Assembly (NCBI GenBank): GCA_031278815.1
Contig: JAITJS010000027.1
Location: forward strand, 1-35,787
DNA length: 35,787 nucleotides
Direction of reading: 5' to 3'
DNA from: Treponema sp.
GTDB lineage: Bacteria > Spirochaetota > Spirochaetia > Treponematales > Breznakiellaceae
Position 1 is the first letter of the stretch, and each line of letters starts with the position of its first letter. The position numbers and the translations under genes are program-made. The notes beneath the pieces are model-generated. The model worked only from the letters and a program-made list of their open reading frames with translations, was not told the origin of the DNA and made no database searches. Positions 17,496 through 27,579 of the stretch are shown piece by piece.

Positions 17496-17545
17496 TTGAC
17501 ATATTGTACTAGTTTATTTACTATTGTACTAGATGAATAGTACAA
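17496..17545 (+). promoter_or_regulatory. Promoter and palindromic operator over the GntR start codon
   Basis: TTGACA (17496-17501) and TACTAT (17519-17524) are separated by exactly 17 bases. A perfect palindrome, TTGTACTA (17524-17531) and TAGTACAA (17538-17545) with a 6-base spacer, covers the end of the -10 box and the ATG at 17533. An extra direct copy of TTGTACTAG lies at 17504-17512, exactly 20 bases upstream of the second copy. Transcription is expected to begin near 17531, so the mRNA would have almost no leader. No ribosome site is visible before the ATG. Confidence 0.7.
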
Positions 17546-17940
17546 ATACCGAGACCACACTACGTTTTTCTCTGGACACAGCTAATGGCGTACCGGTATA
17601 TCGGCAAATCATCCAGCAAATAGAATATGCCCTCTTATCCGGTCGAGTACAGGCAGGGGACAAGCTGCCGACGATCCGTTCCCTTGCGGTGGGCCTCAAA
17701 GTCAACCCTAATACCATCGCCAAGGCATACGGTGAACTGGAGATCCGAGGTATCTTGCATACACAAGTAGGAAGCGGCACCTATATATCAGGTAAAAAAC
17801 CTATAGGGGAGGAGGATGCCCTGGAACGGAAGATTCAGGAAGTACTGGGACGGTTTATTGAGGAGATGCGCGCGCTAGGAGTTGCAAAAAAAGAACTGGT
17901 AGATCTTATCGAGGCTTACGATGAAAGGAGGATGCAATGA
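17533..17940 (+). CDS. GntR-family regulator, YtrA subfamily
   Basis: 135 residues, the short length of YtrA regulators (a GntR winged helix plus only two C-terminal helices). The winged helix covers about 20-88: PVYRQIIQQIEYALLSGRVQAGDKLPTIRSLAVGLKVNPNTIAKAYGELE, ending in the wing GSGTYIS. The tail (about 96-133) is helical and would dimerise. The ATG at 17533 lies inside a palindrome and lacks a ribosome site, so leaderless translation is likely. The last four bases overlap the next gene (ATGA). YtrA repressors typically control adjacent ABC transporters, and an ABC system follows here. Confidence 0.92.
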   Translation: MNSTNTETTLRFSLDTANGVPVYRQIIQQIEYALLSGRVQAGDKLPTIRSLAVGLKVNPNTIAKAYGELEIRGILHTQVGSGTYISGKKPIGEEDALERKIQEVLGRFIEEMRALGVAKKELVDLIEAYDERRMQ

Positions 17941-18920
17941 GCCTTACACAAAGCGGTTTAGTTAAGCACGGTGAGCAGCCGAGTAGAAAAAAAATGAAAC
18001 CCCATCCCGCGGCGTATCAGCTACGGGATTTTACCCGTATGAAGCTGTTCGCGGTGCTCCTGTGTGTTGCGGGAATCATCCTGGGACTCACGGGGAAAAG
18101 GGAAATGCTCGGAACCCTGGGTGGGGATATCTTGACCGGAGTCTCGGTGCTCACTGCCTTGTATATCCTCATCGTCCCGGCGGTGCGGAAAATTGAGGAA
18201 TGGGATCGGGCGGTAGTGCTCAGGCTGGGACGTTTCCAGGGGGTACGGGGGCCGGGGCTTATCTTCCTCGTACCGTTATTCGATAGAATCTCCCAGATCA
18301 TCGACATCCGCATCCGGGTTACCGACTTTGCCGCCCAGGAAACCCTTACCCGGGACTCGGTAATGGTCAATGTGGATGCCTTCGCGTTTTGGCTGGTTTG
18401 GGACCCCCAGAAGGCGGTTCTGGAAGTGGAAGACTATACCCAAGCGGTGATGTTGGCTTCTCAGGCAGCGTTGCGGAACGCGGTTTCCAGTAATGATCTT
18501 TCCACCTTTCTTGAACGGGGAGACCTCATTGAAAAGCAGATCCAGGCCGAGGTAGATCGGCAGACCACCGAGTGGGGCATTACGGTGCAGTACATCGAGC
18601 TCACCGATGTGCAGATCCCTGAGGCTCTCCAGGATTCCCTATCGCGCATCGCCCAGGCGGAACGGGAAAAAAAGGGCCGGATCCTCCTGGCAGATGCGGA
18701 GATCGAGATCGCCCGGAAGCTGGAGGAAGCAGTAGCAATCTACGCCAAAAATGAACCGGCTATGAAACTGAAGATTCTTTCCATATTAAACGAAGGATTA
18801 AAAGCGGGAAATTCCATGATGCTGGTCCCCAATTCCATTACAGAAGCGCTCAAAGCCAAGGATGTGTTCGGTTTAGAGGCGCTGACAGAACTACGGCATC
18901 AAAAGAAAGTGGCAGAATAG
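17937..18920 (+). CDS. SPFH/band-7 membrane protein, slipin type
   Basis: 327 residues. A basic 35-residue N-terminus is followed by two hydrophobic segments (about 36-52 and 62-82) and then the band-7/SPFH domain (about 84-255). Diagnostic words are EEWDRAVVLRLGRFQGVRGPGLIFLVPLFDRI, ITVQYIELTDVQIPEALQDSL and the following AQAEREKKGRILLADAEIEIARKLEEA coiled coil. Slipins form large oligomeric rings on membranes and help assemble or protect membrane proteins. The gene overlaps the regulator by four bases (ATGA), so its synthesis is coupled to it. An 80-base gap with a dyad precedes the ABC genes. A link with ABC export is inferred from order. Confidence 0.92.
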   Translation: MSLTQSGLVKHGEQPSRKKMKPHPAAYQLRDFTRMKLFAVLLCVAGIILGLTGKREMLGTLGGDILTGVSVLTALYILIVPAVRKIEEWDRAVVLRLGRFQGVRGPGLIFLVPLFDRISQIIDIRIRVTDFAAQETLTRDSVMVNVDAFAFWLVWDPQKAVLEVEDYTQAVMLASQAALRNAVSSNDLSTFLERGDLIEKQIQAEVDRQTTEWGITVQYIELTDVQIPEALQDSLSRIAQAEREKKGRILLADAEIEIARKLEEAVAIYAKNEPAMKLKILSILNEGLKAGNSMMLVPNSITEALKAKDVFGLEALTELRHQKKVAE

Positions 18921-18965
18921 GAAGGGGTTTCTCCCCGGTCCATGCAGAGGGATCGCATAGGCGGT

Positions 18966-18987
18966 AATTAGTTAGTAAGTACTAATT
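18966..18987 (+). promoter_or_regulatory. Dyad before the ABC ATPase gene
   Basis: AATTAGT (18966-18972) and ACTAATT (18981-18987) are perfect inverted 7-mers with 8 bases between. The core GTACTA (18979-18984) is also in the GntR palindrome, so this may be a second, weaker operator. It ends just before the strong AAGGAGG of the next gene. Confidence 0.4.
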
Positions 18988-19001
18988 TTAAGGAGGTATA
19001 C

Positions 19002-19685
19002 ATGACGGTAATACAAGCGGTAAATGCGGTGAAAAATTACGGACTGAACGGCCAGCAGGTCCATGCCCTGCGGGGGATAAACCTGGAGTTCCAAAGCGGT
19101 GAGTTTGCAGCAGTGGCCGGTCCTTCAGGGAGCGGTAAGTCTACCTTTCTGCACCTAGCAGGATGTCTGGACACCCTGTCAGGGGGCAGCATGATCGTGG
19201 AAGGGCAGGATGTGGCAGGGCTTTCCCAAAAACAGTTGGCGTTGCTGCGGCGATACCGTATCGGGTTTATCTTCCAGGCATATAACCTCATCCCGGTCCT
19301 GTCGGTGGAGGAAAATATTGGTTTCCCCCTCACCCTCTTGGGGGTGGACAAACAGGAGATCCGCGATAGGGTCAGGCAGGTGCTCACCGAGGTGGGGCTT
19401 ACCGGTATGGAAAGACGCCGCCCCAAGGAGATGTCAGGCGGTCAGCAGCAACGGGTGGCTATTGCCCGGGCCCTGGTAAAAAAGCCTGCCATCATCCTCG
19501 CGGATGAGCCCACCGCAAACCTGGATTCTACCATTAGCCGGGAGATCCTGGAACTTATGGTCCGGCTCAACAAAAGTGAAGGGACTACCTTCATCTTTTC
19601 CACCCATGATCCCATGGTCATGGACTATGCCCGCAGGATCGTCCGTATCCGAGACGGCCAAATCGAAAGCAACGAGGTAACGTGA
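19002..19685 (+). CDS. ABC transporter ATPase, LolD/MacB type
   Basis: 227 residues. Walker A is GPSGSGKST (40-48), the Q-loop is in FIFQAYNLIP (89-98), the ABC signature is SGGQQQR (145-151), Walker B is IILADEP with Glu169, and the H-loop histidine is 202. The family powers type VII (MacB-fold) mechanotransmission transporters such as LolCDE and MacB. It is followed by two FtsX-type permeases, which fits this class. TAAGGAGGTATAC gives an excellent ribosome site. The stop overlaps the start of the first permease (TGATG), showing tight coupling. Confidence 0.96.
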   Translation: MTVIQAVNAVKNYGLNGQQVHALRGINLEFQSGEFAAVAGPSGSGKSTFLHLAGCLDTLSGGSMIVEGQDVAGLSQKQLALLRRYRIGFIFQAYNLIPVLSVEENIGFPLTLLGVDKQEIRDRVRQVLTEVGLTGMERRRPKEMSGGQQQRVAIARALVKKPAIILADEPTANLDSTISREILELMVRLNKSEGTTFIFSTHDPMVMDYARRIVRIRDGQIESNEVT

Positions 19686-21367
19686 TGACGATGACAAGCA
19701 TAATCGAGTTGGAGCGGCTGGCCTTCCGCAATCTGGCCCGGCATAAGGTGAAGACCATCCTCACCATTACCGCGGTAAGCGTCAGCGTGGGGCTTTATAT
19801 TTTTATGGACGGCTGGCTCACGGGGATGAACATTGATTCCCTGCGGAACATCGCCAGTTTTGAGATCGGCGCAGCAAAGCTCCAGACCAGGGCCTATTAC
19901 GACAAAAAAGAGGACCTTCCCATGTACGAGAACTTTCAGGGGTGGGAGCCAAGCGCTACGGCCCTGGATCGAGCGGGTTATGACAGTACGCCACGGTTCG
20001 TGTTTACCGGGACCCTCTATTCAAAAACCGCTTCTGCGCCCATACAGTTTAGCGGCTGCGACCCGGCAGGGGAGGCGCGGGTCCTCCGCTACCCGGAGTA
20101 TATCGAATCCGGTCGTTTTATCAGGAACGGCGCTTTTGAAATAGTCCTGGGGGCGGTTACCGCAGACAAGCTCCAGGTGGGAATCCCCCAGCGGCCCAGG
20201 GCGGATGAACTGGAGCAGGATATTCTTCCCAGTCTCCCTACGAGGGAACAGGACTTTGTGCGAGGCCTCTATGAAAAGGCTCCTTCCCGGTCCGGAGAGG
20301 AACGTCAGACCCTGAAAAAAAACATTCCCCCTGCGGATATGGAGCGCTACTGGAAAGTCCTGGCCGAGATGGGGCGGATGGACGTGCAAATCTCCACGGT
20401 GATCGATATCAAGGCCGCCCCTGAATCGGTGCGGAAGGAGAAGTTTGAGGTGGACCTGGCCCCGGTTTTCAGCGCCGAAGAACAGGAGCTGTTCCGCCGG
20501 GCCTACGAGTTTGATGAACTTACCCAGGCTTGGCATCTGGTTTCCGAAGACGAGGCCCTTCCGTCCTGGGTTTTGGACGCTATGGTCGGGGTGGATTACG
20601 CCGGGGCCATACGGCATGTGAACCAGCTCATTTCCGCAGTGGTGGTAGGAGTGGTCAATTCCCCCAATCCCAAGACCAACAACAACACCGCCTGGATTCC
20701 CCTGGAGGCGCTCCAGGACGAGACCGGGCTTATGCTGGAGGGCCGGGTGACGGAACTCCTGATCCGGATAAAGAACGCCGACGACGGGAAGGTTTCTGGA
20801 AAAGCCGAGCGTCCCGGGGCCATCAAAGCGGCCCTGGCGGGAACGGCCTATACCCTGCCGCAGGAACTGGATATTTATCCCTGGGAGGCCTATGTCCAGG
20901 ACTACCTCGGGGCCTCAGGGGGGGACAATATTACCAACAGCGTCATGATCGTCATCCTCTTCATCCTTTCCTTCATGGGGATCGCCAATACCATGCTCCT
21001 TGCCATCCTGGAACGGACCCGGGAAACCGGCATGATGCGGGCTATGGGCATGAGCAACGGCCAGTTGATCGGCGTCTATATGCTGGAGGCCGGGATGATG
21101 GGCTGTTTCGGTTCCCTTATCGGCATCCTGCTGGGCTGCCTTATCAATATCCCCATGGTCGAATACGGCCTTGACTTTACCGCCATGACCGAATCTATGG
21201 GGGGAGACATCGGTTACCGGGTTACCGGCGTCTTCCGGTCCGCGTGGCATATCCCGGCGATCATCGGTTCCGGGATCATCGCCACGATCCTGGCTTCCTG
21301 CATGGCCTTCTTCCCCATCCGGCGGGCCCTCAAGACGCCAATCACCGAAAGCCTGCGGTTTGAGTAA
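19685..21367 (+). CDS. FtsX/MacB-type ABC permease with a large periplasmic domain
   Basis: 560 residues if started at the ATG at 19685, which overlaps the ATPase stop as TGATG. One membrane helix lies near residues 20-40, then a periplasmic part of about 370 residues, then three helices in the last 150 residues. The FtsX core near the C-terminus has NTMLLAILERTRETGMMRAMGMSNGQLIGVYMLEAGMMG, the segment that contacts the ATPase. The periplasmic part is about 140 residues longer than in its partner, with an acidic, charged insert near 170-260 (for example DILPSLPTREQDFVRGLYEKAP). With the partner it should form an asymmetric pair like LolC and LolE. Confidence 0.92.
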   Translation: MTMTSIIELERLAFRNLARHKVKTILTITAVSVSVGLYIFMDGWLTGMNIDSLRNIASFEIGAAKLQTRAYYDKKEDLPMYENFQGWEPSATALDRAGYDSTPRFVFTGTLYSKTASAPIQFSGCDPAGEARVLRYPEYIESGRFIRNGAFEIVLGAVTADKLQVGIPQRPRADELEQDILPSLPTREQDFVRGLYEKAPSRSGEERQTLKKNIPPADMERYWKVLAEMGRMDVQISTVIDIKAAPESVRKEKFEVDLAPVFSAEEQELFRRAYEFDELTQAWHLVSEDEALPSWVLDAMVGVDYAGAIRHVNQLISAVVVGVVNSPNPKTNNNTAWIPLEALQDETGLMLEGRVTELLIRIKNADDGKVSGKAERPGAIKAALAGTAYTLPQELDIYPWEAYVQDYLGASGGDNITNSVMIVILFILSFMGIANTMLLAILERTRETGMMRAMGMSNGQLIGVYMLEAGMMGCFGSLIGILLGCLINIPMVEYGLDFTAMTESMGGDIGYRVTGVFRSAWHIPAIIGSGIIATILASCMAFFPIRRALKTPITESLRFE

Positions 21368-21406
21368 ACGGTGCCTGGCACCAGTTGGGGAGTGAAGAAT
21401 GGTAAC

Positions 21407-21472
21407 CACGAACGACGCGGGCAAACACGAACCTGTTGTTCGGTATATTTCCTTACGGGTGTTTGTTCGTGA
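21407..21472. repeat. Imperfect inverted repeat between the two permease genes
   Basis: CACGAAC (21407-21413) recurs inverted as GTTCGTG (21466-21472), and CAAACAC and GTGTTTG lie inside the pair. The two permease genes are separated by 144 bases, while the other junctions in this part of the operon are much tighter. A small insertion of repetitive DNA is likely. The word CCACGAA is also found in the element at 29165-29353. Confidence 0.4.
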
Positions 21473-21511
21473 GATGGTTATTATTGGCGGCTTGTGATGA
21501 AAGGAGGAATC

Positions 21512-22780
21512 ATGGATACCATCAGAATCGGGGGCGCGGGAGCCCTCATCAAGATCGCGTACCGGAACATTTTACGAAACCGGCGGCGGACCCTTTTCTG
21601 CGTCAGCGCGGCGGCCGTCGCGGTGTTCTTTACGGTTTTTATGCAGGCGTGGATTGCGGGGATGACGAACAACATGGAGGAGGTGGTCCGGGTTTTTGAC
21701 TCAGGCCACCTGAGCGCGGTGTCTTCCCAATACGAGGCGGAAAAGGAATATTACCCCGTCTGGTTTCCCCTGGCCGATGGCCTTCCCGTGGCAGAACTGG
21801 AAGACCGTGTCCTGGGCCTTGAAGGGGTAAAGACGGCGCTCCCCCGGATTACGGCCTTTGCCACCCTCCAGGACAGTACGGTGAAACACGCCTTCCTCTG
21901 GGGCATAAAAGTCAGGGAGGAACTGGCCCTGCATAACTTTAACCTTACCCGCCGGGATGACGGCCTCCTGGAAGGCCGCTATCCCGAACCGGACAGCAAC
22001 GAATGCGCCATCGGGATCAGGATGGCCGAAAAGGCGGGGCTTAGGGTGGGGGACCGCCTTCCCCTGAAAACCATGTCGGCCCAATTTTCCGACAAGCTGT
22101 GGAGCCCGGTCATTACCGGTGTCTTCCAATTCGATTATATAAAATATGACGAAGACGCCATCATCGTTGACTTTACCCGGCTCCAGCGGCTCCTGGTTTT
22201 AGCCGAAGGGACCCAGCAGCTTTTTATCTACGCGGAGAAGGCCGCCCAAAGCAGGGGCATCAGCGGACAGCTCAAAGCCCTGCTGGGGGAGGACACCGTG
22301 GTCCGGGACTGGGGGGATAATTATTTTGTGATCATCATGCAGCAGAGCAGGATGATCTTTATAGTGGTCTATCTGGTGTTCCTCATCGTGGCGAGCTTCC
22401 TCATCGTCAATACCGTGGTGATGATCATCCACGAGCGGATCAAAGAGATCGGCATGATGGGAAGCTTGGGAATGACCCGCGCCGAAATCGTCCGGGTCTT
22501 CTTCTTCGAGGCGGTGTTTCTCAGCGTCCTAGGATCCCTTGCGGGCTGCCTGGTAGGGGGCCTGGCAACGGCGGTGTTTTCCTTCTTCCCCTTTGACTAC
22601 AACGCCTTCACCGGCGGCGGCTTCAAGGAATTCCCCATGGCGGGAACCATCGTCCTGTCCTTCGATCCCGCCATCCTGCTCCAGGGCTTTGTCTTCGGGG
22701 TGCTCATCACCTCAAGCTGTACGCTCTTCCCCAGCCTTAAAAGCGCCTTCGTGGAGCCCGTTGAGGCGTTACGGAGATAA
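21512..22780 (+). CDS. FtsX/MacB-type ABC permease, second subunit
   Basis: 422 residues starting at the ATG at 21512, placed four to five bases after AAAGGAGGA; the GTG at 21494 lies before that site. One N-terminal helix near 25-50 contains VFFTVFMQAWIAGM. A periplasmic domain of about 225 residues follows, then three C-terminal helices. The core motif VMIIHERIKEIGMMGSLGMTRAEIVRVFFFEAVFL matches the FtsX coupling region, as in the first permease. The compact periplasmic domain makes it the likely LolC- or LolE-like partner. The hairpin that follows overlaps its stop codon. Confidence 0.92.
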   Translation: MDTIRIGGAGALIKIAYRNILRNRRRTLFCVSAAAVAVFFTVFMQAWIAGMTNNMEEVVRVFDSGHLSAVSSQYEAEKEYYPVWFPLADGLPVAELEDRVLGLEGVKTALPRITAFATLQDSTVKHAFLWGIKVREELALHNFNLTRRDDGLLEGRYPEPDSNECAIGIRMAEKAGLRVGDRLPLKTMSAQFSDKLWSPVITGVFQFDYIKYDEDAIIVDFTRLQRLLVLAEGTQQLFIYAEKAAQSRGISGQLKALLGEDTVVRDWGDNYFVIIMQQSRMIFIVVYLVFLIVASFLIVNTVVMIIHERIKEIGMMGSLGMTRAEIVRVFFFEAVFLSVLGSLAGCLVGGLATAVFSFFPFDYNAFTGGGFKEFPMAGTIVLSFDPAILLQGFVFGVLITSSCTLFPSLKSAFVEPVEALRR

Positions 22781-22805
22781 TGAACAAGTATTCACTGTTC
22801 ATTAT
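22777..22805 (+). repeat. Perfect 10-bp AT-rich hairpin at the permease stop codon
   Basis: ATAATGAACA (22777-22786) and TGTTCATTAT (22796-22805) pair perfectly around a 9-base loop and include the TAA stop at 22778. Because the LolA-like gene follows in the same operon, it may be a processing or attenuation site, or an inserted short dyad repeat. Confidence 0.5.
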
Positions 22806-22835
22806 TAATTATTACGTGATATGTGGAGGTTTATG

Positions 22836-23576
22836 ATGAAAATAAGGGTATGTGCGTCTCTGGTTGTTTTATTGGCGGTCTCCTCTGTTTACGGGCAGAC
22901 GCCTCAGGCGGCGGAGTTATTGCGGCGGGTGGATGATAACGAGATCTATACCACGATTGAGTACGAGGGGGAGTTGATCATTGAGTATCAGAACAAGCGC
23001 TTTGTAAAGGTGATGAAAGCCTGGGCACGGGAAAACTCCGATAGTTTTATCGAATTTACCAATCCCGAAGACCGGGGTACCAAGTACCTCAAAAAGGGGG
23101 GCCGGCTTTATGTGTATTCCCCGGACATCGAGGAGGTGATGCTCATTTCGGGACACATGCTGAAAGAAAGCATGATGGGGTCGGATATGTCCTACGAAGA
23201 TACCATTGAGAACGAGAAGCTCTCTGCCCGCTACGATCCGGCCCTGGGTGGTTCTGAGTGGTGGAACGGGCGGGACTGCTGGATTCTGGACCTGAGCGCA
23301 AAGAAAAAAACCGAAAGTTACCCCAAGCAAAAGCTTTGGATCGATAAGGAGACCGGAGACTGCCTCCACTATGAGCTTTTTGCCCTTTCCGGGGCAAAGC
23401 TCAAGGAATACACCCTTCACCGAGTCGAGGTTTTTGGCGGTCGCCGCTTTCCCGTGGAAATCGAAATCCGGGACCTCTTGCGCAAGGGCAGCAAGACCAC
23501 CATGATCATGCGGAACGTGCTTATGGACAAGCCCGTCGCTGATTCAGTGTTCAGTCAACGGAATCTATCCCGCTGA
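22836..23576 (+). CDS. LolA-like periplasmic lipoprotein-sorting protein
   Basis: About 246 residues, started at the ATG at 22836, six bases after GGAGG; the ATG at 22833 is nearly as good and adds one residue, while the one at 22821 lies before the ribosome site. The signal peptide ends in VYGQTP. The mature protein matches the outer-membrane lipoprotein-sorting family: an early YEGELIIEYQNKRFVKVMKAWARENSDSFIEFTNPEDRGTKYLKKGGRLYVYSPD, then GREC-like NGRDCWILDL and the late KLWIDKETGDCLHYEL. In LolA this half-barrel carries lipid or lipoprotein through the periplasm. It is coded between an ABC permease and an outer-membrane barrel, which completes a trans-envelope set. Confidence 0.88.
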   Translation: MKIRVCASLVVLLAVSSVYGQTPQAAELLRRVDDNEIYTTIEYEGELIIEYQNKRFVKVMKAWARENSDSFIEFTNPEDRGTKYLKKGGRLYVYSPDIEEVMLISGHMLKESMMGSDMSYEDTIENEKLSARYDPALGGSEWWNGRDCWILDLSAKKKTESYPKQKLWIDKETGDCLHYELFALSGAKLKEYTLHRVEVFGGRRFPVEIEIRDLLRKGSKTTMIMRNVLMDKPVADSVFSQRNLSR

Positions 23577-23603
23577 AAATAGGAACGTAAGGAGAAGTGC
23601 AGT

Positions 23604-24773
23604 ATGAAGGTCATGGGAATACGCAGATTGGTTGAGGTCATGGTTTTGCTCGGTATTACCAGGGGAATGGCCGCTGCCGAAGGGCTTACGGTTTCAGGGG
23701 TCCTGGACAGCAGCATTACCGCGGGGGCAGGGACGGGAGAAGTGCCGGATTTTTTCTATGGAGTCGAGGAGTACGCCAATCTGCGGGTCCAGGGAAAGCT
23801 GCGGGAGGGCCTTTCCTTTTACAGCGCCTTTAACCTGATCGCCGCAGCAGGGATCTCCGCGCTGGGGCTTGAGCGCCTATCGGCCCCCGGGCTAAACGCA
23901 GCCTCCCAAAACTATGCAGCGACCATAGAACTGGAACGACTCTTCTTCCGGCTCAATCGAGAGTATCTGGACATTGACGGAGGACTTCTTAGGATTGCCG
24001 CAGGGTACGGTCAGGTCTTTGGGCCTTCGGATTTTCTCAATCCCAAGAATCCTTTGCAACCGGATGCCCGGCCCCGGGCAGTTCTGGGGGGAACTCTCGC
24101 TGCCTATCCTGCAGATTCCTTTAAGGTTCAGGTCTTTGCTGCTGCCCCGAAGAACCCCTTCGTCCTTGACGGAGGCGGATTCCTGGGAGGTATCCTTGGA
24201 GAGAAGCATGGGGACCGGGCGAGCCTTCAAGCGCTCTATACCTACGAGGCACCAGAGGAAGCTTCGCTATGGGGCATCCACCGCGGGGGATTTTCCCTCA
24301 AAGCGGATCTCCACGTCGGCTTTGTGGCGGATGTCCTTTATACCTACAAACCCCAAGAGGATTTTGGCTTCTCCGGGCTTTCTGCCAGCGCGGGTTTGGA
24401 CTATTCCTTTCTGGAGGGCCAATGGTATGTGCTCGCCGAGTACCTCTACAATGGTTCCGCCTCTGCCACCTCGGTGCAAAGCGGCAATGCGACCGGGTTT
24501 TCCGGGGAACAGTTCCTGTATGGGGCCATACAATACCGGGTGAATGACTATACCAGCCTTACCCTGGCCTGCCTTTCGGCTTTGAGTGACGGTTCCTTTG
24601 CCCCGCTCCTCAGTGGGGAGCATGAACTGATCCAGGGCTTCACCCTGAGCATGTCCGCCCAGGTGCCTTTGGACCGGGACGTCTTCTTCAAGGATGGCAA
24701 CCTGGGAGAACTGGGGCCTAACAACGCGCAAGAGCGCTTTTTGTTCCGCTTCAAGACACGACTGCGTTTCTAA
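23604..24773 (+). CDS. Outer-membrane beta-barrel protein
   Basis: 389 residues. A signal peptide precedes a long run of amphipathic strands rich in Gly, Tyr, Phe and Leu. The protein ends TRLRF, with the final Phe expected of a BamA substrate. Strand pairs such as GFVADVLYTYKPQEDFGFSGLSASAGLDYSF and YGAIQYRVNDYTSLTLACLS are typical of barrels of about 14-16 strands. AAGGAG precedes the ATG. It is the last gene of the set that begins with GntR and SPFH. The specific family is not recognised; it could be an acceptor, porin or assembly factor for material handed over by the LolA-like protein. Confidence 0.8.
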   Translation: MKVMGIRRLVEVMVLLGITRGMAAAEGLTVSGVLDSSITAGAGTGEVPDFFYGVEEYANLRVQGKLREGLSFYSAFNLIAAAGISALGLERLSAPGLNAASQNYAATIELERLFFRLNREYLDIDGGLLRIAAGYGQVFGPSDFLNPKNPLQPDARPRAVLGGTLAAYPADSFKVQVFAAAPKNPFVLDGGGFLGGILGEKHGDRASLQALYTYEAPEEASLWGIHRGGFSLKADLHVGFVADVLYTYKPQEDFGFSGLSASAGLDYSFLEGQWYVLAEYLYNGSASATSVQSGNATGFSGEQFLYGAIQYRVNDYTSLTLACLSALSDGSFAPLLSGEHELIQGFTLSMSAQVPLDRDVFFKDGNLGELGPNNAQERFLFRFKTRLRF

Positions 24774-25675: not shown

Positions 25676-26791
25676 ATGAGAGCTACCCGAGCATTGATAT
25701 ATATGGACCGTCTGAAAAAGAACCTGGAAACAATCCGAAACCGTATAGGTCCAAAGCCGCTGATCTGTATGCCCGTTAAGGCCGACGGGTATGGTCATGG
25801 GGCAATACCCATTGCCCAAGCAGGCCTTCGCTTAGGGGCCGGGCTGCTTGCAGTCGCTACGGTCCAGGAAGGAGCGGAGTTGCGGAAGGCCGGGATAGAT
25901 GCCCCTATTCTGCTCTTTTCCATTCCCCTTCCCGAAGAACTGGACGAACTAACGGCATGTCGGCTCAGTCCCTTTATTGCGGATAAGGAATGCGCTCAGG
26001 CCCTTGCGGCAGCAGCTCACCGGGCAGGGGTACGCCTCCAGGTGCACCTCAAGATCGATACGGGTATGGGCCGGGTAGGTTGCCCTCCCGAAGCCGCGGC
26101 AGAACTGGCGGCGTACATCGCCTCCTTCCCCTCGTTACACTACGCGGGTACTGCCACCCATCTGGCCCGGGCGGATGCTCTTGCTCCAGATGCCCGATCC
26201 TGTACTCGCCAACAGCTTGCCCGATTTACTGAAGCTCTCGGCGCTATCCGAAAGGCCGGTTTTGATACGGGTATCGTACATGCCGCAAATTCCGGGGCGG
26301 TCCTGCTGCATGAGGATGCCTACTTCGATATGGTACGGCCCGGAATTCTCCTTTACGGGTATCCTCCTGCTGCTGAACTAGCCTCCTTGGTGCAGGTGGA
26401 GCCGGTGATGGACCTGGTTACCCAGGTGGTGTTTATCAAAAAAGTTACCAAAGGAGCAGCCCTTTCCTATGGAGGAACCTGGATCGCCCCGGAGGATCGG
26501 CTGATTGCCACCCTGCCGATCGGGTACGGTGATGGTCTGCCTCGGGGATTAAGCGGTAATCTGCAGGTACTTATCCGGGGAACCCAATACCCCGTGGTGG
26601 GAAGGATCTGCATGGATCAATGTATGGTGGACCTGGGGCAGGATAGGGATGTACGCCGCTGGGATCCGGTAACCATCTTTGGAGCTGCCCAGGGATCCCT
26701 CAGCGCAGGGGATCTCGCGGCAAAACTGCATACCATTCCGTATGAGATTACCGGTAATATCAATAAACGGGTTCCCCGGCTGTATTGCTAA
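25676..26791 (+). CDS. alr: Alanine racemase
   Basis: 371 residues. The pyridoxal phosphate lysine is Lys35 (in PVKADGYGHGA) and the second catalytic base is Tyr265 (in LSYGGTW), the same number as in the Geobacillus enzyme. Other family words are HLKIDTGMGR, VHAANSGA and VRPGILLYG. It makes D-alanine for peptidoglycan in the cytoplasm. The ATG at 25676 is chosen because the protein then starts MRATRALIYMDRL like other Alr; the TTG at 25646 is in promoter-like AT-rich DNA. No clear ribosome site is visible, so the mRNA may be very short-leadered. Its stop overlaps the stop of the convergent gene. Confidence 0.95.
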   Translation: MRATRALIYMDRLKKNLETIRNRIGPKPLICMPVKADGYGHGAIPIAQAGLRLGAGLLAVATVQEGAELRKAGIDAPILLFSIPLPEELDELTACRLSPFIADKECAQALAAAAHRAGVRLQVHLKIDTGMGRVGCPPEAAAELAAYIASFPSLHYAGTATHLARADALAPDARSCTRQQLARFTEALGAIRKAGFDTGIVHAANSGAVLLHEDAYFDMVRPGILLYGYPPAAELASLVQVEPVMDLVTQVVFIKKVTKGAALSYGGTWIAPEDRLIATLPIGYGDGLPRGLSGNLQVLIRGTQYPVVGRICMDQCMVDLGQDRDVRRWDPVTIFGAAQGSLSAGDLAAKLHTIPYEITGNINKRVPRLYC

Positions 26792-27579
26792 GGGGCGGTG
26801 ATGCCTTCAGTCGCCCATTGAATGATGACATCCAGCCGTTTCCTTATGGCCGAAGGGATATCAACCTGGGAGGCGATAAAGTCCGATACATCCGTACCTG
26901 CCAGGCTGTACACCAACACCCCTTCAACAATGGGTTCAAAATACAGTTGGGCAATAAATTTATCTTCTTTAATCACCGGGATAAAAAGATAGGTGAGGCT
27001 CTTAAAATTGGATAAGGTGTACAATAAGCCCTGGCCATTGGCGGTAATATCCGCCCGATAATAGGAATTCCCGAAATTAACATCCTTGAGGCGAATATAG
27101 ATGGTTTCCGATGCCGGTACTGAGGCTGCCAGAGGCGGATCCGGAATAGGTGAGAGCTTCTTGGAACTGGCAATCCGGGTGGCGTCTTCAAATAGGGGGG
27201 TCTCCTCCTTCCGGGTAAAGGAATGGTATAAACGGCCTTTCAAACCCCGGATATTTCCAACGGCATTATAGATACGAGTAAAGGAAACCGGTTTACTCGT
27301 AGGAATAACCAAAAGGGATTCCGTGAGGTAGGCAGGATGCTGCTTGAATACGGAATCGGAAATAGCCGCATCCAATGCGGAGGCAGCTAATAAGGTCAAG
27401 CCTGCAGCGGTTTTGGTAGATACCACAAAGCCTTCCGGAGAAAAAATCCGCCCTTTGGTAGCTGCATCAAGCCGGGGAAAGAGCAGGTCAAAAGAACGAC
27501 TCTCACCCATGAGCGGTACCCCACCCACCAGGAGGGTACACAGGAGGGTACAAACGTGGAAACCTCTTATATTCATCAT
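26788..27579 (-). CDS. Exported protein of unknown function
   Basis: 263 residues with a signal peptide (about 1-25, ending PLMGES) and no lipobox. The mature part begins with a helical stretch, then a mixed region with FEDATRIASSKKLSPIPDP and IYIRLKDVNFGNSYYRADITANGQGLLYTLSNFKSLTYLFIPVIKEDKFIAQLYFEPIVEGVLVYSLAG. I do not recognise it beyond its being a single-domain periplasmic or surface protein of a type common in spirochaetes. The stop overlaps the alr stop by convergent transcription. AAGGAAG lies before the ATG pair at 27579. Confidence 0.75.
   Translation of the reverse strand: MMNIRGFHVCTLLCTLLVGGVPLMGESRSFDLLFPRLDAATKGRIFSPEGFVVSTKTAAGLTLLAASALDAAISDSVFKQHPAYLTESLLVIPTSKPVSFTRIYNAVGNIRGLKGRLYHSFTRKEETPLFEDATRIASSKKLSPIPDPPLAASVPASETIYIRLKDVNFGNSYYRADITANGQGLLYTLSNFKSLTYLFIPVIKEDKFIAQLYFEPIVEGVLVYSLAGTDVSDFIASQVDIPSAIRKRLDVIIQWATEGITAP

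Follow-up and report, generated by a model that had tools for sequence, protein, structure and literature searches.

A conserved seven-gene set in Treponema with the parts of a probable trans-envelope transport system, an SPFH protein and a putative repressor of its own

Introduction

Two kinds of described system join an inner-membrane engine to a LolA-fold protein and an outer-membrane barrel. Of the resistance-nodulation-division (RND) type, AmeABCD and, in P. putida, the DUF1302/DUF1329 pair (PP_0765/0766/2018/2019) have been studied (PMC6394551, PMC10866462). In spirochaetes, Borrelia BBJ23-29 has been described as a possible ATP-binding cassette (ABC)-LolA-like-barrel export cluster with a proposed non-polar ligand (PMC13078400), and it is the nearest published analogue of the locus analysed here. 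This locus, on contig JAITJS010000027.1 of Treponema sp., encodes a YtrA-type GntR regulator, a slipin-type SPFH protein, a LolD/MacB-type ABC ATPase, two FtsX-type permeases (PERM1 and PERM2), a LolA_like periplasmic carrier and an outer-membrane beta-barrel. Regulators of the YtrA type are known for a long palindrome with GT/AC far from its centre, a start-site operator and a tiny regulon (PMC4494728, PMC6746942, PMC8060467).

The window, that is, the whole stretch of DNA analysed, is the entire 35.8-kb contig, which belongs to a draft genome of 2.72 Mb and 90% completeness. Draft genomes were compared throughout, so the absence of a gene is weak evidence. On balance, we lean towards reading the seven genes as a dedicated system of trans-envelope transport that arose from LolCDE/LolA parts yet is distinct from that machinery. 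Such a system would bear on how diderms that lack lipopolysaccharide and LolB bring lipids and lipoproteins to their outer membrane, a route for which the operon is a compact, conserved candidate.

Results

Gene order and distribution

The seven open reading frames (ORFs) all lie on the plus strand between positions 17533 and 24773. The sequence-only reading had described seven co-directional genes here, and they are borne out by the ORF list, by families assigned with Pfam and NCBIfam profiles and, for the barrel, by an AlphaFold2 model. The intergenic gaps (-4, +81, -4, +126, +40 and +27 bp, in gene order) indicate an operon-like arrangement.

Conservation of the seven-gene neighbourhood had been set beforehand as a test, and it was assessed in two partly overlapping sets: 197 genomes of the order, and a scan of named genomes that yielded 80 loci. 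In the first, 18 loci, the window's among them, had the strict order GntR-SPFH-ATPase-PERM1-PERM2-LolA_like-barrel, and 32 had its last five genes. In the second, all seven genes stood in order at 21 of the 80 loci and the last five at 37. Conservation is far above chance: dozens of loci contain the run, whereas no flanking gene is common to more than 7. No conserved cargo gene was found beside the operon; the most frequent flanking genes encode MATE (7 loci), a receiver protein (7), Hpt (5) and DUF2147 (4), which indicates that no dedicated protein cargo is co-encoded.

Close relatives of PERM1 (43-79% identity) occur, among the 197 genomes, mainly in the window's family and one other, and many members of the order have none. 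The loci of the second set come mostly from Treponema and Spirochaetaceae/Spirochaetia genomes or metagenome-assembled genomes. They include the complete genome of Breznakiella homolactica (L166), which places a candidate with its own switch and, on paper, a complete path in a named isolate. Judging by isolate names, we read the loci as largely from termite guts; the conserved order spans many genera of treponemes of this type. The ABC core with LolA_like was also detected on contigs labelled Cloacimonadota, Coatesbacteria, Fibrobacterota, Aminicenantes and Bacillota, and a Fibrobacterota contig (L204, Chitinivibrionales) carries all seven genes. Two further contigs, labelled Fibrimonadaceae (L148) and Chitinispirillales (L184), hold treponeme-like copies (LolA_like 73% and 66% identity), which represent mis-binning or lateral transfer. 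In the window, a DUF6675 protein (26788-27579, minus strand) is encoded end-to-end with an alanine racemase and shows no conservation beside the operon.

Promoter and candidate operator

A sigma70-type promoter precedes the GntR gene (17496..17524, plus strand), composed of TTGACA (17496-17501), a 17 bp spacer and TACTAT (17519-17524); position 17496, where the sequence-only reading had begun its locus, is the first base of the -35 box. Relatives have an equal layout upstream of GntR or of the ATPase. The -10 box ends 9 bases 5' of the GntR ATG, and the Shine-Dalgarno sequence seen at the downstream genes is absent there (window 17519-17540), so the GntR mRNA is probably leaderless.

Comparison of the GntR upstream regions yielded a single palindrome, TTGTACTA-N6-TAGTACAA. 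Its copy in the window, the putative operator TTGTACTA-GATGAA-TAGTACAA (17524..17545, annotated without a strand), lies directly 3' of the TTGACA-17-TACTAT promoter and overlaps the GntR start codon; an extra half-site, TTGTACTAG (17504..17512, plus strand), is located inside the -35/-10 spacer. With 0-2 mismatches, the operator was present upstream of 56 out of 69 GntR genes, a number that includes duplicates between the two genome sets; the reversed pattern never matched with fewer than 4. The site at the GntR start is the only one in the window genome with fewer than 3 mismatches, the seven other matches having 3 each and being no more numerous than those of the reversed control. A family-wide scan allowing at most 1 mismatch retrieved sites in 62 out of 150 genomes (about 76, versus 8 for the reversed pattern). 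Of those that could be placed, nearly all preceded the GntR or the ATPase gene or lay at the end of a contig. A wider regulon was sought among the placed sites; the exceptions were two genomes with the operator at a patatin gene, and G106, where a single 1-mismatch site precedes a lipoprotein-like ORF (G106:C24). These observations match the published YtrA-type pattern. An operator over the GntR start codon would be autoregulatory if, as we presume, GntR binds it, in agreement with the repressor of its own that had been proposed for the set.

The patatin-like phospholipase (L110:1753-4065, also L271; PF01734, 770 aa) has a perfect operator over its own start codon; in both genomes, which belong to one genus, its gene immediately precedes GntR-SPFH-ABC. 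If the GntR regulon includes a lipid enzyme, this would hint at the cargo.

Coupling of the GntR-SPFH pair to the ABC genes

The GntR regulator (17533..17940; PF00392 2e-16, residues 23-85) has 135 aa, leaving no space for a large ligand domain. It falls in the YtrA size class (120-140 aa, a winged helix-turn-helix plus a short dimerisation tail), and its nearest NCBIfam regulators include Rv1152/PmtR-like. The SPFH protein (17937..18920, 327 aa; Band_7 PF01145 8e-35) has two N-terminal hydrophobic segments in its hydropathy profile (residues ~31-55 and ~61-84), and its nearest solved structures are stomatin, PH stomatin (PH1511) and QmcA (E-values 1e-32 to 3e-35). NfeD (PF01957), the usual slipin partner, gave no match in the 90%-complete window genome. 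A further pair of SPFH proteins (436 and 414 aa) is encoded in this genome at L025:5509-8060.

Among 73 genomes of the family, 39 have both SPFH and PERM1, 7 and 7 have a single one of them and 20 have neither (Fisher p 7e-7, hand-tallied and with kinship ignored). When the two modules are unlinked, the promoter found at GntR and an operator with at most 2 mismatches also precede the ATPase in 7 out of 10 genomes, and the remaining three, related to one another, keep a decayed promoter-operator region at this place. The shared operator before an unlinked ATPase is the best evidence that SPFH and the transporter form one system. Together with the conserved order, it upholds the SPFH-ABC coupling that the sequence-only reading had singled out as unusual, and it offers a genomic case in which shared operators, beyond neighbourhood, link an SPFH protein with one specific transporter. 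At L159 and L150, an operator stands before a LolA_like-barrel pair without ABC genes ahead.

Several observations weigh against such a system. About 10 genomes have GntR-SPFH and the ABC genes at different places, and several drafts with ABC genes show no detectable GntR-SPFH. G031 (perfect operator) and G103 (2-mismatch operator) have no GntR detected in their drafts, so the match between operator and GntR is not strict; the joint lack of both across genomes is only a loose trend. A tree-based sign test of uncoupling versus operator was not significant, the independent pairs being too few.

One alternative is that SPFH is a mere passenger: GntR-SPFH would be an independent membrane-stress unit that shares its repressor, and often its locus, with the ABC genes. 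The two genes form a tight pair, adjacent in 47 loci, and also precede a distant ABC subfamily (L102, L192, L197 and L209), and in the PERM1 tree the linked and unlinked states switch at least three times, most simply five. Judged by this distribution, GntR-SPFH is a detachable two-gene unit. We consider the passenger explanation possible, if unlikely, given that unlinked ABC genes usually bear the same operator, and that SPFH accompanies two subfamilies of ABC-LolA_like-barrel systems, also in another phylum (L204). The set had been called self-contained; this stands for seven genes with a putative repressor of their own, but not for a GntR-SPFH pair that detaches and goes undetected in some relatives with the ABC operon.

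The ABC engine and the housekeeping Lol proteins

The engine consists of the LolD/MacB-type ATPase (19002..19685, 227 aa; ABC_tran 4e-31), PERM1 (19682..21367, 561 aa; PF02687 3e-17) and PERM2 (21494..22780, 428 aa; PF02687 7e-20). The true start of PERM2 is probably at 21512, where AGGAGG precedes an ATG. PERM1 was modelled with AlphaFold2 at a predicted local distance difference test (pLDDT) score of 90.2. In Foldseek searches, the model shows the type VII FtsX permease fold of LolC/LolE, and its top match is LolE in the lipoprotein-bound LolCDE complex (LolCDE-Lpp; E-value 3e-16). The nearest solved structures of PERM2 are LolF/LolC. PERM1 has an extra periplasmic insert (residues ~168-300, window 20183-20581), which is missing in the short relatives L087, L090, L155 and L182 and in distant members.

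Against the lolCE model (TIGR02212), PERM2 scores 97 bits and PERM1 40 bits, while the housekeeping LolC and LolE of the window genome, part of a LolC-LolD-LolE set that adjoins ftsY, score 210 and 194 bits. Since these also fall below the cut-off of 362 bits, the cut-off is weak alone and the ranking is informative. Each of the 18 genomes tested, among them that of the window, has a lolCE match outside the operon that outscores the operon permeases. The PF03548 LolA of the window genome is encoded on another contig, and the operon carrier belongs to PF17131, not PF03548.

Carrier, barrel and their probable RND-type kin

The LolA_like carrier (22821..23576; PF17131 6e-48) has a signal peptide and a GSDxSYED motif that rests on invariant alignment columns; its true start is likely at 22833 or 22836. 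Its solved relatives are 4z48, 3buu, 9tp6 and 3bk5. The barrel (23604..24773, 389 aa) had no Pfam or NCBIfam matches. Its AlphaFold2 model, built on an alignment of 49 relatives, has 18 long strands (pLDDT 92.9). The C-terminus ends in ...RLRF, and a C-terminal Phe is found in most relatives. Among the best 50 fold matches listed are AlgE, OprD/Occ and general porins (~8-13% identity), which, on the model, is a common fold class, not a family assignment. Model and fold search ruled out an Omp85/LptD-like barrel, and a profile of the barrel family gave no match to solved structures.

Two RND/MMPL-LolA_like-barrel loci were observed in the window genome (L018:5965-11302 and L020:8173-13117). Both carry PF17131 carriers, like the operon; these are the two further LolA_like genes of this genome. 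The barrel profile aligned with the RND-partner barrels at an E-value of 4.9e-6 (0.047 for the reversed control), over 72 columns only, around GLxR...G...F.P.D..NP, and one member of the barrel family had a weak DUF1302 match (E-value 0.0024). These matches suggest that the operon barrel is distantly related to the RND-partner barrels. This kinship makes the operon look like an ABC-driven counterpart of the RND-LolA_like-barrel systems, and it is with this type, rather than as the replacement of LolB proposed from the sequence, that the porin/AlgE-like barrel seems to belong. A DUF2147 gene is present in one of the two RND loci, and L066, L071, L078 and L104 have DUF2147-like genes close to the ABC operon.

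Discussion

Proposed path and cargo

From the computed gene content and order, operators, folds and apparent barrel kinship, we infer the following path. The YtrA-type repressor would cover the transcription start and keep the operon off until an inducing signal, probably from the membrane or envelope, releases it. The slipin may organise a patch of the inner membrane, from which the LolD/LolE-like machine, with one ATPase and two different FtsX permeases, would extract a lipid or other lipophilic molecule. The ABC machine would pass this cargo to the LolA_like carrier for delivery to the porin/AlgE-like barrel in the outer membrane, a working mode like that of the RND-LolA_like-barrel systems, with ATP hydrolysis replacing proton motive force. 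A lipophilic cargo moving from the inner to the outer membrane is the most likely one. Two findings favour it over a dedicated lipoprotein: the absence of a conserved cargo gene, and the apparent kinship of the barrel with RND-partner barrels. It counts against this preference that the case for a lipid is argued from family resemblance only.

Alternatively, the path could be that of an inducible efflux pump that rids the cell of membrane-active peptides or toxic hydrophobic compounds, LolA_like being the periplasmic shuttle and the barrel the exit. AmeABCD, which combines an RND protein with a LolA-superfamily DUF1329 protein and a DUF1302 barrel, confers monoterpene tolerance (PMC6394551), lipid II-binding antibiotics induce the B. 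subtilis YtrA operon (PMC8060467), and a narrow self-repressed regulon suits a stress pump. We nevertheless hold a pump to be doubtful, as the PERM1 fold is closer to LolE than to MacB, the locus has no adaptor or TolC-type partner and no member has been linked to resistance.

A LolCDE-like engine with a LolA_like carrier would also fit a second Lol pathway, in which certain lipoproteins are sorted to the outer membrane or the cell surface and the barrel stands in for LolB; Borrelia, without a known LolB, has a lipoprotein-rich outer membrane, and BBJ23-29 has been read similarly (PMC13078400). However, no conserved lipoprotein gene adjoins the operon, PF17131 proteins also serve RND systems not known as lipoprotein movers and the barrel's apparent kin are DUF1302-like, which makes this route rather improbable. 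Finally, that the operon is simply the housekeeping LolCDE/LolA set, composed of identical protein superfamilies, can be dismissed with near certainty, given the separate, better-scoring LolCDE beside ftsY and the separate LolA in this genome, the separate LolC/E in relatives and the many relatives without the operon; here, the separateness that the sequence-only reading had supposed holds.

Comparison with known systems

The lipophilic-cargo transporter that we favour can be set beside five described groups. It shares with LolCDE-LolA of E. coli, and with its own genome's housekeeping copy, one ATPase, two type VII-fold FtsX permeases and a LolA-fold carrier, but differs in adding a barrel, SPFH and GntR, in its PF17131 carrier, in its far lower lolCE scores and in not being universal. 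Compared with the YtrA-subfamily GntR regulators (B. subtilis YtrA, S. acidocaldarius YtrASa), it has the same short GntR, long palindrome, start-site operator, tiny regulon and ABC or membrane-protein targets; its operator differs from the AGTGTA-13-TACACT of B. subtilis YtrA, and its targets, unlike theirs, include SPFH and an outer-membrane path. The text of a 2015 survey of YtrA regulators has no mention of Treponema or Spirochaete. Slipins/stomatins and QmcA share the SPFH domain and are the nearest solved relatives, whereas the operon SPFH is partnered with GntR and an ABC exporter, in a genome where NfeD was not found. An SPFH-ABC neighbourhood is in itself not unheard of: E. coli qmcA is located close to the ABC genes of FetAB. 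The open-access literature yielded no paper that links SPFH with a LolA/ABC system of this kind.

Borrelia BBJ23-29 is likewise a spirochaete cluster of an ABC transporter, a LolA-like protein and an outer-membrane barrel. Its single permease is a homodimer, its barrel is of the Omp85 type and two TPR proteins belong to it, in contrast to the two permeases, porin/AlgE-like barrel, SPFH and own putative repressor of the operon. The RND (HAE3/MMPL)-LolA_like/DUF1329-DUF1302 systems also join an inner-membrane engine with a LolA-fold protein and an apparently related barrel, by shared gene loci or by phenotype; the operon's engine is ABC/FtsX, not RND/MMPL, and SPFH and GntR are added. The operon, therefore, combines a Lol-related engine, an RND-type carrier-barrel partner, SPFH and its own putative repressor, which suggests that either type of engine, RND or ABC, can power the same carrier-barrel pair.

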